DNA of 64,000 nucleotides from a virus. Below, in pieces: positions 53,475-57,862 of this stretch. Every line of letters starts with the position of its first letter. The stretch's first letter is position 1. The position numbers were made by a program, and so were the translations under genes. The notes under the pieces were generated by a model. The model made no database searches. It worked only from the letters and a program-made list of their open reading frames with translations, and was not told the origin of the DNA. The stretch spans positions 1 to 64,000 of IMG/VR virus record IMGVR_UViG_3300046454_000714. One strand, given 5' to 3'.

Positions 53475-54860
53475 ATGGCCCTCGATCTGGAACCGGATGC
53501 CTGGTTGAAGCGGCTGATCCACTGCCATGACGGTGACCTGCCGCAGTTGAGGCTGATGGACAGCTACTACGAGGGCACGCAGCCTCTGTCGTATTTGGCT
53601 CCGGAGATTCAGTCGGAACTCTCGGACCGGATGCGCCAACTGGTCATCAACTGGCCGCAGTTGGTCGTGGATGCCTTGGATGAGCGTCTGGACGTCGAGG
53701 GCTTCCGGTACGCGGACTCCGAGACGACCGCGGCGGATCTGTGGGACGTGTGGCAGGCCTCCGACATGGACGAGGGTTCGCAGCAGGCCCACGTGGATGC
53801 TCTGGCCCTGAAACGCTCCTACGTGATCATCGGCGCGAATGAGGACGACGAGGCGAACCCGATCGTGACCGCGGAGTCGGCGCTGGAGGTGTTCGCGGAG
53901 AGGGATCCGCGGACTCGCCAGGTGGTGGCGGCGGTGAAGCGTTGGGATGAGCCGTCGGCGGCCGGGTCGGCGCCGGTGAAGTGGGCGACGCTGTATCTGC
54001 CGAATGCGCGGATGACGTTCGAGCAGCAGAAGGGCGCTTGGGTCGAGGTCGACCGGGATGAGCACAACCTCGGCGAGGTGCTGGTTGTTCCGTTGGCGAA
54101 CCGGCCGCGACTGCGGCACCTGGATGGCACGTCCGAACTCCGCTCGGTCATCCCGATCTCGGACGCGGCCTGCAAGATCGCCTCGGACATGATGGTCAGC
54201 GCGGAGTATCACGCGATGCCGCGCCGGTGGGCGACGGGCATGTCGCGTGACGACTTCGCCGACGAGAACGGGCAACCGCTGGGCGCGATGTCGGCGCTGG
54301 CAGGCCGCATGTGGACGAACGAGAGCAACGAGGTGAAGTTCGGGCAGTTCCAGGAGGCCCAGCTCTCCAACTTCCACGAAACGATCAACGTTCTCGCCCG
54401 CCTGGTGGCCGCGATCACGGGCCTGCCTCCCGCATTCCTCGGCCTGGCGACGGATCAGCCTCCGTCTGCGGATGCGATCCGCGCGTCGGAGGCCCGCCTG
54501 GTGAAGCGCGCGGAGCGCCGTCAGCGTGCGTTCGGCGAAGCCTGGGAGCGGGTCATGCGCCTCGTTCTCCTGGTGCGGGACGGCGAGTTGGACCCGCGGA
54601 CCCGCAAGCTCGAAACCGTGTGGCGGGATCCGTCGACGCCGACGTTCGCGCAGAAGGCCGACGCGGTCGTCAAGCTGCACGCCTCCGGCATTCTGCCGAC
54701 GGAGCAGGCGTGGGAGGACTTGGGCTACAGCGCAGTGCAGCGGGCCCGGATGCGGGGCATGCAGGACGATGCCCTGACCCGGATGACGGCCATGGACCTG
54801 CACCAGATGTCGACAGCCCAGGATCCGGCGCCCGTTGAGGCGCCTCCCGTCGGCGGCTGA
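53475..54860 (+). CDS. Portal protein
   Basis: 461 residues. Features of SPP1/HK97-type portals: RLMDSYYEGTQPLSYLAPEI at the start, INWPQLVVDALDERLDVEGF, and the long stem/wing helices with ARLVAAITGLPPAFLGLATD (about 312-331). The C-terminus lists METHs typical of clip-crown regions. It forms the dodecameric ring at the capsid vertex. Followed 2 bp later by the MuF-like gene. Confidence 0.92.
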   Translation: MALDLEPDAWLKRLIHCHDGDLPQLRLMDSYYEGTQPLSYLAPEIQSELSDRMRQLVINWPQLVVDALDERLDVEGFRYADSETTAADLWDVWQASDMDEGSQQAHVDALALKRSYVIIGANEDDEANPIVTAESALEVFAERDPRTRQVVAAVKRWDEPSAAGSAPVKWATLYLPNARMTFEQQKGAWVEVDRDEHNLGEVLVVPLANRPRLRHLDGTSELRSVIPISDAACKIASDMMVSAEYHAMPRRWATGMSRDDFADENGQPLGAMSALAGRMWTNESNEVKFGQFQEAQLSNFHETINVLARLVAAITGLPPAFLGLATDQPPSADAIRASEARLVKRAERRQRAFGEAWERVMRLVLLVRDGELDPRTRKLETVWRDPSTPTFAQKADAVVKLHASGILPTEQAWEDLGYSAVQRARMRGMQDDALTRMTAMDLHQMSTAQDPAPVEAPPVGG

Positions 54861-54862
54861 TC

Positions 54863-56854
54863 GTGGCCGTCGAGACGCAGGCGCACCAGGACATCATCGA
54901 CGCCTATGGCCGGTCTCAGCAGCGGGCTGTCATCCAGACGACGGTGACGCTGCAGCGGCTGTGGAAGGAGCTTGCGGCCACGGATCTCTCACGGTCGTGG
55001 CTCGGGGGTCTGGGTGCGGCGATGGTGCGGGCCGTGTCGGCCGGCCAGTTGGTGGCGGCGTCGACGGGCCAGAAGTACATCGAGGCGATGGTCCGCGGGG
55101 ATGGGCTGGGCAACAACTACATGGAGCAGGCGTCGCATGTCGACGCCCGCTCGTTCTCGGGTGCCGCGTCGGACGGCCGGGCGCTGGACAGCCTGCTGTA
55201 TCTGCCGGTGATTCGCACGAAGACGCTGATCGGTAACGGGCTGACGTTGCAGGAGGCGATGCTCGGCGGCAGGGCCCAGCTCTTGCAGGTGGCCGCTTCG
55301 GAGGTCGCGGATGCGGGCCGTGGTGCGGCCAGTGTGTCGATGATCGCGAACCGGTCGGTGACGGGCTACGTGCGGACTGTCCGCTCGGGGGCCTGTGCGC
55401 GGTGCGCGATTCTCGCTGGCCGCTGGTACCGGTGGAATGCCGACTTCGAACGGCACAAGAGGTGCTTCCCCGCCGGTGTCGTCGTGTCAGGCCCGCGCAC
55501 GCTGGCGGCCACGCGGCGGCGGTATGAGGGGGAACTCGTCATCCTCACGACGGCGAGTGGCCAGGAGCTCCCCGCCACCGGCAATCACCCGATACTGACG
55601 CGACGCGGCTGGGTCGCTGCCAATCTCATCCAGGAAGGCGACGAGGTAGTCCGCAGCCTCCGGCCGGAGGGCGCTGCGCCCCTCGTAGTCCCAGATCATC
55701 AGCAGATGCCATCCCGCATCGAGGATGTATGGGCTACGGAGAGCGTGGCGGGCGTGCTTCGCGGCGTGCCAACCACCGCCGAGGATTTCCACGGCGACGG
55801 AGGCCACGGCGAAGTCGACGTTGTAGGGCCCAACCGCTTTCTGTGGGGTGAAGTCGAGGCAGCGCTCGCGCAGCATCTGGGCGAAGAGGTCCTCACCGTC
55901 GGAGCGTTGGGCTCGATCGGCATTCCGCTCTCGGCTCAGCGCGGCCACTTTGAGCGTGTCACCGGAGATCGGTTTGCCGCGGACGGCGTCATGGGCGGCC
56001 TGCGTGATCCTGGCCCGCTCCTCGGGGCTGGCCTTGGACATGCGCAGGGCATTGGCTTCAGCGCGGTCGCGGAGATGCGTCCCGGCCTGCTTGAGGTGGC
56101 GCCGCACGACGCCTCGCATGACGCCATAGCGGATGGATATGGACTGTTCGCTCTCTCCGCTCTCGTAGGCGGCAACGAGTTCAGCGGTGGGGAGATCTAT
56201 GGCGCAGGGCCGCGGTGGGATGCCGCGGGCCTGGCGGGCTCGATGGAAGACGCTGAGCGAGATGCCCGAGTTGGCCGCGAGCTCCTTGAGCGGCTCGCCG
56301 GACAGGTAGAGCTCGATCGCGTGGTCGAGGCGCGCAGGGTCAGTTGGTCCGGGCATGTGTATGACCTCAATTCGACAGAGGGCTGGTTCAACGCGAACGG
56401 CCTAATCGTATCTAACTGTCAGTGCTACGGGGTGCCAGCTACAGAGGCTCGCCCGGGCCGTCACACGAACCCGATGTCGTTCTTTCAGGGTCTGTCGCGC
56501 GCGGAGCAGGATCGCCGGTTCACGATCGGCGGCGCGGAGGCGATCCGGAACGGCGCCGACATCTACTCGGTGGTGAACGCGGGCCGTTCGACGATCACGC
56601 TGGACGCCTACGGCAAGAAGGTCGTGGCGACGCTCGAAGGCACGACGAAGCGCGGCGCGTTCTACCAGCAGATGCTGCGTGAGGCCGAGCAGCGCACCGG
56701 GCAGAGGTTCGCCCGGAACGGCTACGACCTGGAGCGTGGCCTGCCCCGCTTTCACCTGCGGACGCCACGGCTCACGCCCGGCGAGATCCTGCGTCTCTCG
56801 GATGACCGTAACGAGCTGATCCGCCTGCTACGGCGTTTCGGCTACCTGTCGTAG
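54863..56854 (+). CDS. MuF-like minor capsid protein interrupted by an intein
   Basis: 663 residues as translated, GTG start; about 345 after removal of the intein (residues 201-518). The N-extein is helical and ends in the metal-binding pair C178-x2-C181 and H198. The C-extein resumes at C519-Q-C521, so splicing restores C-x2-C...H-x2-C-x-C of the phage Mu F/VG15 family. The C-extein continues with TNPMSFFQGLSRAEQDRRF and a helical end. These proteins sit inside the head and may be injected. The gene is only functional if splicing occurs. Confidence 0.88.
   Translation: MAVETQAHQDIIDAYGRSQQRAVIQTTVTLQRLWKELAATDLSRSWLGGLGAAMVRAVSAGQLVAASTGQKYIEAMVRGDGLGNNYMEQASHVDARSFSGAASDGRALDSLLYLPVIRTKTLIGNGLTLQEAMLGGRAQLLQVAASEVADAGRGAASVSMIANRSVTGYVRTVRSGACARCAILAGRWYRWNADFERHKRCFPAGVVVSGPRTLAATRRRYEGELVILTTASGQELPATGNHPILTRRGWVAANLIQEGDEVVRSLRPEGAAPLVVPDHQQMPSRIEDVWATESVAGVLRGVPTTAEDFHGDGGHGEVDVVGPNRFLWGEVEAALAQHLGEEVLTVGALGSIGIPLSAQRGHFERVTGDRFAADGVMGGLRDPGPLLGAGLGHAQGIGFSAVAEMRPGLLEVAPHDASHDAIADGYGLFALSALVGGNEFSGGEIYGAGPRWDAAGLAGSMEDAERDARVGRELLERLAGQVELDRVVEARRVSWSGHVYDLNSTEGWFNANGLIVSNCQCYGVPATEARPGRHTNPMSFFQGLSRAEQDRRFTIGGAEAIRNGADIYSVVNAGRSTITLDAYGKKVVATLEGTTKRGAFYQQMLREAEQRTGQRFARNGYDLERGLPRFHLRTPRLTPGEILRLSDDRNELIRLLRRFGYLS
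55463..56416 (+). mobile_element. Intein in MuF metal site
   Basis: 318 residues, Cys201 to Asn518, followed by Cys519. Block A begins CFPAGVVV, block B is LPATGNHPILT (the TxxH region), block F/G is GHVYDLNSTEGWFNANGLIVSN. The usual penultimate His is Ser here, a known but less common variation. The sense strand has no LAGLIDADG or HNH domain between blocks B and F; it reads about 220 residues including AEDFHGDGGHGEVDVV. The endonuclease appears to be on the opposite strand (next entry). Confidence 0.85.
55487..56356 (-). CDS. Antisense homing endonuclease nested inside the intein (Vsr/DUF559-like)
   Basis: 289 codons on the minus strand, wholly within the intein. Start ATG has GAGG 8 bases upstream. 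Two HTH-like units come first (LSGEPLKELAANSGISLSVF, then ESGESEQSISIRYGVMRGVV), followed by a NUMOD-like SPEERARITQAAHDAVRGKP. The nuclease domain begins GEDLFAQML and has FTPQKAVGPYNVDFAV, VAVEILGGGWH and YILDAGWHLLMIWD. This matches the Glu, Asp and Glu positions of Vsr/DUF559 PD-(D/E)XK enzymes. Codons align exactly opposite sense codons, a register that favours long shadow ORFs, yet the domain match argues for a real gene. Confidence 0.7.
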   Translation of the reverse strand: MPGPTDPARLDHAIELYLSGEPLKELAANSGISLSVFHRARQARGIPPRPCAIDLPTAELVAAYESGESEQSISIRYGVMRGVVRRHLKQAGTHLRDRAEANALRMSKASPEERARITQAAHDAVRGKPISGDTLKVAALSRERNADRAQRSDGEDLFAQMLRERCLDFTPQKAVGPYNVDFAVASVAVEILGGGWHAAKHARHALRSPYILDAGWHLLMIWDYEGRSALRPEAADYLVAFLDEIGSDPAASRQYRVIAGGGELLATRRREDDEFPLIPPPRGRQRARA

Positions 56855-56933
56855 CCCGCAGGCCGCCGCATCACGACCCAAGTTTGGCCGCGCGCAAGGC
56901 GCGGTCTCTGATCCCGCAATGGGAGTTCCATCC

Positions 56934-57674
56934 ATGAGTGCGACTCGTACCCGCTGGCTGCCCGCTGCTCAGAGCGTGGGCTGGTTCCGGCTCAACCGTC
57001 ACGAAGACCCCGACCCCGCCGACCCGGAGCCTGCTCCGGACCCGGCAGCCGATCCGGCAGATCCGGATCCCGAGCCTGACCCGGCAGGCGACCCGGCGGA
57101 CCCCGAGCCTGATCCGGAGCCTGAAGGCGCGGACAAACTCGGCGATGAGGGCAAGAAGGCTCTCGACCGGATGAAGGCCGAGCGTGCCGCGGCCAAGAAG
57201 ACTGCCGCTGCCGAGAAGAAGCGCGCCGACGACCTTGCACGCAAGGTGCAGGAGTTCGAGGACGCGCAGAAGTCTGAGGCGGAAAAGCTCGCGGCGAAGG
57301 TCGAACGGTCTGCCCAGCGGGAGGCCAAGGCGACCGCGCGTGCCGTGGCGGCCGAAGTGCGGGCCGCGGCCGGCGAGTTCGCCGACCCGGGCGACGCCGT
57401 GGATGTGCTGATGCGCGACCCCAGCCAGTACGTCGACGCGGACGGCGAGATCGACATGGACGCCATCGAGACGGCCCTGACGGATCTGCTGGGCCGGAAG
57501 CCGCACTGGAAGAAGCCTGAGCCGGCCGCCCCGGTGGTTGAGCCGAAGCAGAAGCTGAAGCCGGATCCGGGCCAGGGCTCGCGTGGCGCTCCGGCTCCCG
57601 TGGACTACCGCACCGCCTCGAAGGAAGAGGTCGCTGCGGAGCTCGGCAAATTCGGCTACCGGCAGCGCGTGTGA
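56934..57674 (+). CDS. Capsid scaffolding protein
   Basis: 246 residues. Acidic Asp/Pro repeats (DPDPADPEPAPDP, residues 25-65) are followed by a long coiled coil (about 75-150; KKTAAAEKKRADDLARKVQE) and a basic end (HWKKPE...). This is the typical profile and position of a scaffold directly before the capsid gene. It is probably cleaved or released during maturation, perhaps by the Prp-like protein encoded next. Confidence 0.8.
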   Translation: MSATRTRWLPAAQSVGWFRLNRHEDPDPADPEPAPDPAADPADPDPEPDPAGDPADPEPDPEPEGADKLGDEGKKALDRMKAERAAAKKTAAAEKKRADDLARKVQEFEDAQKSEAEKLAAKVERSAQREAKATARAVAAEVRAAAGEFADPGDAVDVLMRDPSQYVDADGEIDMDAIETALTDLLGRKPHWKKPEPAAPVVEPKQKLKPDPGQGSRGAPAPVDYRTASKEEVAAELGKFGYRQRV

Positions 57675-57862
57675 TCACGGTCCGGGCCCGGTTGGGCGGC
57701 GGACGCACCTCGATTGAGGTGTCCGGTCACGACGAGCCTGCTGCTGGGGGTCGCGTCTGCGCCGCCGTGACGGCCATCACCCAAACCGCGCTGCTGGGCC
57801 TGGATCAGTACGCCCAGCAGTACCCGGACCAAGTGTCCATAGAGATCATCACTGAGGAGTGA
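57671..57862 (+). CDS. Prp-like cysteine protease
   Basis: 63 residues, GTG overlapping the scaffold stop. TSIEVSGHDEPAAGG, RVCAAVTAITQTALLGL and DQVSIEIITEE follow the ribosomal-processing cysteine protease Prp, whose catalytic His and Cys correspond to H20 and C30. The host enzyme trims ribosomal protein L27, and Prp of Staphylococcus is known to cleave phage scaffold and capsid. Here it lies between scaffold and capsid genes, so I infer a prohead protease. It is shorter than full-length Prp, which is about 105 residues. Confidence 0.65.
   Translation: MITVRARLGGGRTSIEVSGHDEPAAGGRVCAAVTAITQTALLGLDQYAQQYPDQVSIEIITEE

Follow-up and report, generated by a model that had tools for sequence, protein, structure and literature searches.

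A MuF-type head gene in a 64,000-nucleotide stretch of viral DNA (the window, that is, the whole stretch that was analyzed, itself part of an 87,527-base IMG/VR virus record) very probably carries a two-strand mobile element, in which a plus-strand intein in the MuF protein and a minus-strand homing endonuclease gene are written on the same base pairs. The computed evidence lies in the two open frames and the fold, in selection that differs between the strands, in precisely empty sites and a recent transfer, and in a codon bias for embedded signals. The features of the region are listed below, with a slash marking an insertion point.

53475-54860: SPP1-type portal gene, directly before the MuF-like gene
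54863-56854, plus strand: MuF-like minor capsid/head morphogenesis gene (PHROG 1522), split in frame by the intein
55463-56416, plus strand: intein of 318 amino acids (C1...N318, +1 Cys), inserted at HKR/CQC, which corresponds to the MuF HPN/CRC motif
55463-55672, plus strand: N-terminal half of the splicing domain (blocks A and B; TGNH at residues 39-42), predicted with a confident fold
55835-56197, plus strand: sense reading of the overlap core, intein residues 125-245, predicted to be disordered (pLDDT < 50; sense N/S 1.04)
56351-56368, plus strand: splicing block F, GHVYDL, whose antisense holds the nuclease start codon and Shine-Dalgarno sequence
56393-56416, plus strand: splicing block G, ANGLIVSN, up to the C-terminal splice junction
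55487-56356, minus strand: antisense endonuclease gene, 289 codons, ATG start
56228-56338, minus strand: first helix-turn-helix (HTH) unit, nuclease residues 7-43 (AlphaFold2 helices H7-18, H23-30, and H34-43; weak HTH_23 match)
56087-56188, minus strand: second HTH unit, nuclease residues 57-90 (HTH_58, 2.6e-5; AlphaFold2 helices)
55685-55915, minus strand: Vsr/DUF559/MTES_1575-like nuclease core, nuclease residues 148-224
56365-56368, minus strand: nuclease Shine-Dalgarno sequence GAGG, opposite the Asp-Leu codons (GAC CTC) of block F
56405-56410, minus strand: -10-like TACGAT, antisense of the block G Ile-Val codons ATC GTA, weak in the window (TACAAT in relatives)

The host gene was matched at 1e-69 to PHROG 1522, a head-protein family labeled "head maturation protease", and its homologues in Arthrobacter and other phages lack the intein. 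The initial annotation had placed a 318-residue intein with splicing blocks at 55463-56416, and such an element was indeed found there, beginning with Cys, ending with Ser-Asn, followed by Cys, and retaining intact blocks B (TGNH), F (GHVYDL), and G (LIVSN). The Pfam Intein_splicing profile matched it at 3e-7, which is under Pfam's curated cut-off, and a profile of the intein family matched solved inteins, including the Mja KlbA and Mtu RecA inteins, at values down to 3e-10. Across the family, the terminal Asn was conserved in 79 of 79 members and the first Cys in 75 of 79 (three having Ala1 and one lying in a masked or damaged stretch), with the +1 residue being Cys in 78/79 and Thr in 1/79; in block B, H42 was invariant and T39 nearly so. 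In the AlphaFold2 model of the window intein both ends were confident and residues 125-245 fell below a pLDDT of 50. Foldseek returned the Ssp DnaB and Mtu RecA inteins with a probability of 1.00, at TM-scores that were low because the middle of the model is disordered. These profile and model matches point to a HINT protein-splicing element, which would excise itself from the precursor. Four inteins (L065, L066, L077, and L026) seemingly start with Ala rather than Cys while keeping the +1 Cys, and in this respect resemble class 2 inteins such as Mja KlbA.

On the opposite strand, the 289-codon ORF that had been proposed to cover 91% of the intein was recovered, with 870 of the 954 bp overlapped, and each of its codons is the exact reverse complement of an intein codon in the sense frame. 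Its own GAGG, which lies 8 nt ahead of the ATG, was confirmed, as were two HTH units and a Vsr/DUF559-like core containing the strings YNVDFAV, VEILGGGWH, and AGWHLLMIWD. The nuclease family profile also matched the two-HTH protein 2lvs. When the minus-strand product was compared with nuclease profiles, as had been suggested earlier, it scored above the gathering score of DUF559 and below the curated cut-off of MTES_1575, the latter being matched by 50 of 59 nuclease relatives at E values up to 0.01. Within the core, N179, D181, E190, and R207 were invariant across relatives, and E155 and H197 nearly invariant. The AlphaFold2 model of the window nuclease reached a pLDDT of 93, and its best PDB fold in Foldseek was Vsr (1cw0; E 9e-4, probability 1.00), the only one to pass E 0.001, with I-Bth0305I (3r3p; E 7e-3, probability 1.00) among the next. 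I-Bth0305I serves a group I intron as its homing endonuclease, and Vsr functions in repair; both share the predicted catalytic-domain fold of the window nuclease, but neither is encoded opposite an intein. Thus, as judged from sequence and model, a Vsr-type catalytic domain is present in the minus-strand protein. The endonuclease domain is not part of the splicing polypeptide, the core of which is predicted to be disordered and shows no constraint in the sense frame. Since disorder is predicted for the sense core and a nuclease fold for the minus-strand protein, the same bases would encode a linker when read in the sense direction and an enzyme when read in antisense.

The nuclease was found by tblastn in 129 phage records, from phages of Gordonia, Salmonella, Klebsiella, Pseudomonas, Vibrio, Aggregatibacter, and other hosts, and the named features under these matches were mostly head or MuF genes. 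In all records opened, except that of an Acinetobacter phage, the match lay antisense within one long gene. In IMG/VR, 332 relatives were matched with one search pattern. That the splicing element and the nuclease gene share base pairs on opposite strands, as had been suggested for the window, was borne out among these relatives: the sense frame was open through the whole nuclease in 95 of 96 nuclease-bearing loci, and always in the same codon register. A search made from the sense intein instead found the antisense nuclease intact in 78 of 80 loci, some of them at a GC content of 0.36-0.38, the other two ending at contig ends; this set consists of the best 80 of at least 533 relatives, and because one of its two search patterns lies within the overlap it is not wholly independent of the nuclease. 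A genome-contig search with a narrower alignment gave four loci, three of which show intein blocks A to G together with the antisense nuclease. Four loci (L040, L078, L079, and L089) were considered as possible nuclease pseudogenes and rejected, the C-terminus ending just somewhat early.

The window is GC-rich, DNA of this kind often leaves codon-aligned antisense frames open, and several other long spurious ORFs lie nearby, all of which would fit a minus-strand ORF that is a by-product of high GC content and codon-aligned antisense reading and yields no functional protein. The wider family argues against this explanation. Both frames are open also at a GC content of 0.36-0.46, the product has a coherent nuclease fold, and one homologous nuclease exists without any sense frame. 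In addition, when conditioned on the sense protein and the local codon use, the probability of finding no antisense stop was about 4e-3 to 3e-16 per locus (18 loci, GC 0.41-0.54). A tree of the relatives has long branches and is compatible with either a derived or an ancestral position of the AT-rich members and of the copy that lacks a sense frame.

Constraint on the two strands was compared in 18 disjoint pairs of homologous loci, with single-base codon changes classed in both frames; the pairs were aligned by the sense frame, so that any alignment bias would run against the antisense frame. In the exteins, N/S was 0.23 for the sense and 1.68 for the antisense frame, whereas in the overlap core the corresponding values were 1.04 and 0.24, and in blocks F and G they were again reversed, at 0.14 and 1.52. 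Consistently, codon position 3 was more variable than position 1 in the exteins of 18/18 pairs, whereas position 1, the antisense third position, was the more variable in the core of 17/18 pairs. Antisense-synonymous changes were in clear excess in the core (791 observed vs. 352 expected), whereas sense-synonymous changes were not (339 vs. 350). The strand switch between exteins and core refutes the GC by-product, which is thereby left with almost no credibility.

Among these inteins the sense reading has a conserved motif, DFHGD..GEVDVV, as would be expected if the sense core were a functional in-frame domain and the antisense conservation its mirror image. This motif, however, lies opposite the active-site strand of the nuclease (YNVDFA...VAVEI) and hence need not be an intein motif, and a functional sense core is highly improbable given its predicted disorder and the restriction of the synonymous excess to the antisense frame. 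In the overlap core, the antisense frame is the conserved one. Homologous inteins in which the sense frame alone stays open and conserved, which would have spoken against the proposed arrangement, were thus not what was observed: both frames stay open, the sense frame of the core seems to be only kept open, and sense constraint dominates at blocks A, B, F, and G. The two genes form an overlapping antisense pair; where they share base pairs, neither frame is interrupted and each is in use.

The putative expression signals of the nuclease gene are embedded in the splicing motifs. The nuclease start codon lies opposite the His codon of block F, and across relatives the Shine-Dalgarno sequence lies opposite the Asp/Asn-Leu codons of that block. 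The block F Leu is encoded by CTC in 60 of 69 loci, compared with 24% in the exteins, and CTC is kept even in three loci whose exteins never use it (L002, L019, and L077); the block F His is CAT in 49/68. Upstream of the nuclease, minus-strand -10 boxes arise from block G codons just inside the splice junction. The wider clade of the window has TACAAT, often as TGnTACAAT; many elements ending in His-Asn have TGnTATAAT; and elements ending in Lys-Asn have TTGACA-17/18-TATAAT, wholly within the intein. GTA, a rare codon, encodes the Val before Ser-Asn or His-Asn in 31 of 48 cases, against an expected 9%. When the promoter score of each locus was tested against 400 synonymous recodings, p < 0.05 was reached at the intein C-terminal end in 72% of loci, at the intein N-terminal end in 9%, and in the exteins in 2%. 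Because the relatives share ancestry and are not independent, P values for this codon bias are too small; the three different -10 registers nevertheless argue against one inherited accident. In the window itself, TACGAT did not rise above its own synonymous null (p = 0.79), and a generic sigma70 promoter scan found none in 55400-57700. Across relatives, for which the comparison with synonymous recodings was more telling than the generic scan, the codon bias indicates that the antisense of block G holds a sigma70-like promoter, with a weak -10 in the window. In one clade (L054, L070, L080, L083, L091, and L093), Lys replaces the His or Ser that otherwise precedes the terminal Asn. Read on the minus strand, the VKN codons of this clade give TTGAC, a -35 box, and the promoter may therefore have shaped the splicing motif.

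Closely related MuF exteins were found in 35 IMG/VR contigs, each counted once even when both of its sides were matched; the intein was present in five of them and the site was exactly empty (extein gap 0) in 30, the closest intein-less contig being 94.3% identical in N-extein DNA. Two loci, L084 and L085, carry an identical 960-bp intein between N-exteins that are 81.7% identical and downstream sides that are 91.9% identical, from which it appears that the intein and nuclease are a unit recently transferred as one. In L008 and L040, the exteins are 92-93% identical and the inteins 81% identical, which suggests the replacement of one intein allele by another. Nearly all insertions lie directly before the Cys of the MuF HPNCRC motif; those of L015 (RTE/T) and L023 (WV/CT) occupy other sites in the same MuF-type gene, indicating that the element has changed its site within one gene type. 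These distribution and transfer data point to expression of the nuclease and to cutting of the intein-less MuF allele.

A free-standing relative of the nuclease was found in Acinetobacter phages (L025:455-1348 and L167:2501-3391), where it is convergent with an intein-less MuF gene and touches the 3' end of that gene; in vB_AbaM_IME285 it is annotated as a hypothetical protein. Its codon-aligned sense frame contains 12-13 stops, and the nuclease sequence alone therefore does not hold the opposite frame open. A block F "fossil" upstream of these copies (HVHSL/HVYSR in L025 and L167, in the codon-aligned reading) was considered and found weak, because a start codon and ribosome-binding site alone would force part of these strings. 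As the free-standing copy shows that the nuclease family can exist outside an intein, and as cleavage activity is a prediction, the nuclease might be real yet not be the homing enzyme of this intein—for example, an independent nuclease, selfish or active in competition between phages, for which the intein is a permissive landing site. This is unlikely, though less so than the other alternatives weighed above, since all other nucleases examined lie opposite an open sense frame, mostly with clear intein blocks in a head gene, the insertion motif is the same in nearly all of them, and the empty alleles are exact. Joint recent transfer of intein and nuclease, together with the position of the free-standing copy beside an intein-less MuF gene, also speaks for a homing enzyme.

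Protein splicing, antisense transcription, cleavage, and homing would all belong to the preferred two-strand mechanism. On its plus strand, the insert would be read as part of the MuF head protein, whereupon the two ends of the insert would fold into a HINT domain, excise themselves, and join the exteins, the long middle acting as an unstructured linker. The minus strand would carry a gene of its own, encoding a two-HTH homing endonuclease of the Vsr/DUF559 type; the Shine-Dalgarno sequence and start of this gene would lie in antisense block F and, in most relatives, its promoter in antisense block G. In co-infected cells the nuclease would cut intein-less MuF alleles at the conserved HPN/CRC codons, and repair after cleavage would copy the element into the empty allele.

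Inteins are normally described with an endonuclease in frame, so that host protein and endonuclease are expressed together. Canonical in-frame LAGLIDADG and HNH inteins likewise place a splicing element in a conserved gene, carry a nuclease that promotes spread, and have precise empty sites; here, in contrast, a separate opposite-strand gene with its own start and ribosome-binding site encodes the nuclease, leaving the sense middle as a linker. The so-called fractured genes reportedly contain split inteins with a Vsr-like EDxHD endonuclease as its own gene, and would thus share with the present element an intein and a separately encoded Vsr-like endonuclease. In those genes, however, the host gene and intein are said to be split, with the nuclease gene between the halves, whereas here the intein is whole and the base pairs are shared. 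The ShiLan domain is a mobile insert in a phage gene that is open in the host frame and hides a nuclease in another frame, namely an out-of-frame HNH on the same strand, with no splicing domain or ribosome-binding site found (PMC11855218); the element described here differs in its use of the opposite strand, true intein, embedded ribosome-binding site, and promoter in relatives. Group I introns can carry homing endonuclease genes on the strand opposite the splicing element, as in Didymium L2066, but there the splicing is that of RNA in rDNA, and the nuclease gene, located in a peripheral segment of the RNA, overlaps no second protein-coding frame (PMC9548176). A search of open-access literature turned up no intein described as carrying an antisense endonuclease, with priority being uncertain, as a 2025 preprint by Gosselin et al. 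on actinophage inteins ("non-canonical architecture") may cover part of this. New here are the nuclease Shine-Dalgarno sequence and start in the antisense of block F, and the putative sigma70-like promoter in the antisense of block G.

Overall, these elements likely represent a widespread class in which intein and homing endonuclease lie on opposite strands, with motifs G and F doubling as antisense promoter and as ribosome-binding site and start, respectively. The arrangement is missed by annotation: the intein is marked in the capsid morphogenesis gene of Escherichia phage Snoke (L022), and not the nuclease, the nuclease alone is marked in one opened record (that of the free-standing Acinetobacter copy), and the remaining opened phage records annotate only a head protein, protease, or hypothetical protein. 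In this arrangement, about 950 bases do duty for two genes. If this reading is true, splicing and mobility would be expressed independently yet be physically inseparable, and the nuclease could be made at another time and level than the late head protein. A stop-free sense core forbids TTA, CTA, and TCA in the nuclease gene, so that the decay of either frame would be coupled to the other. The family would also offer a large natural collection of antisense gene pairs that overlap fully and have known folds, in which questions of dual coding and gene overprinting may become testable.
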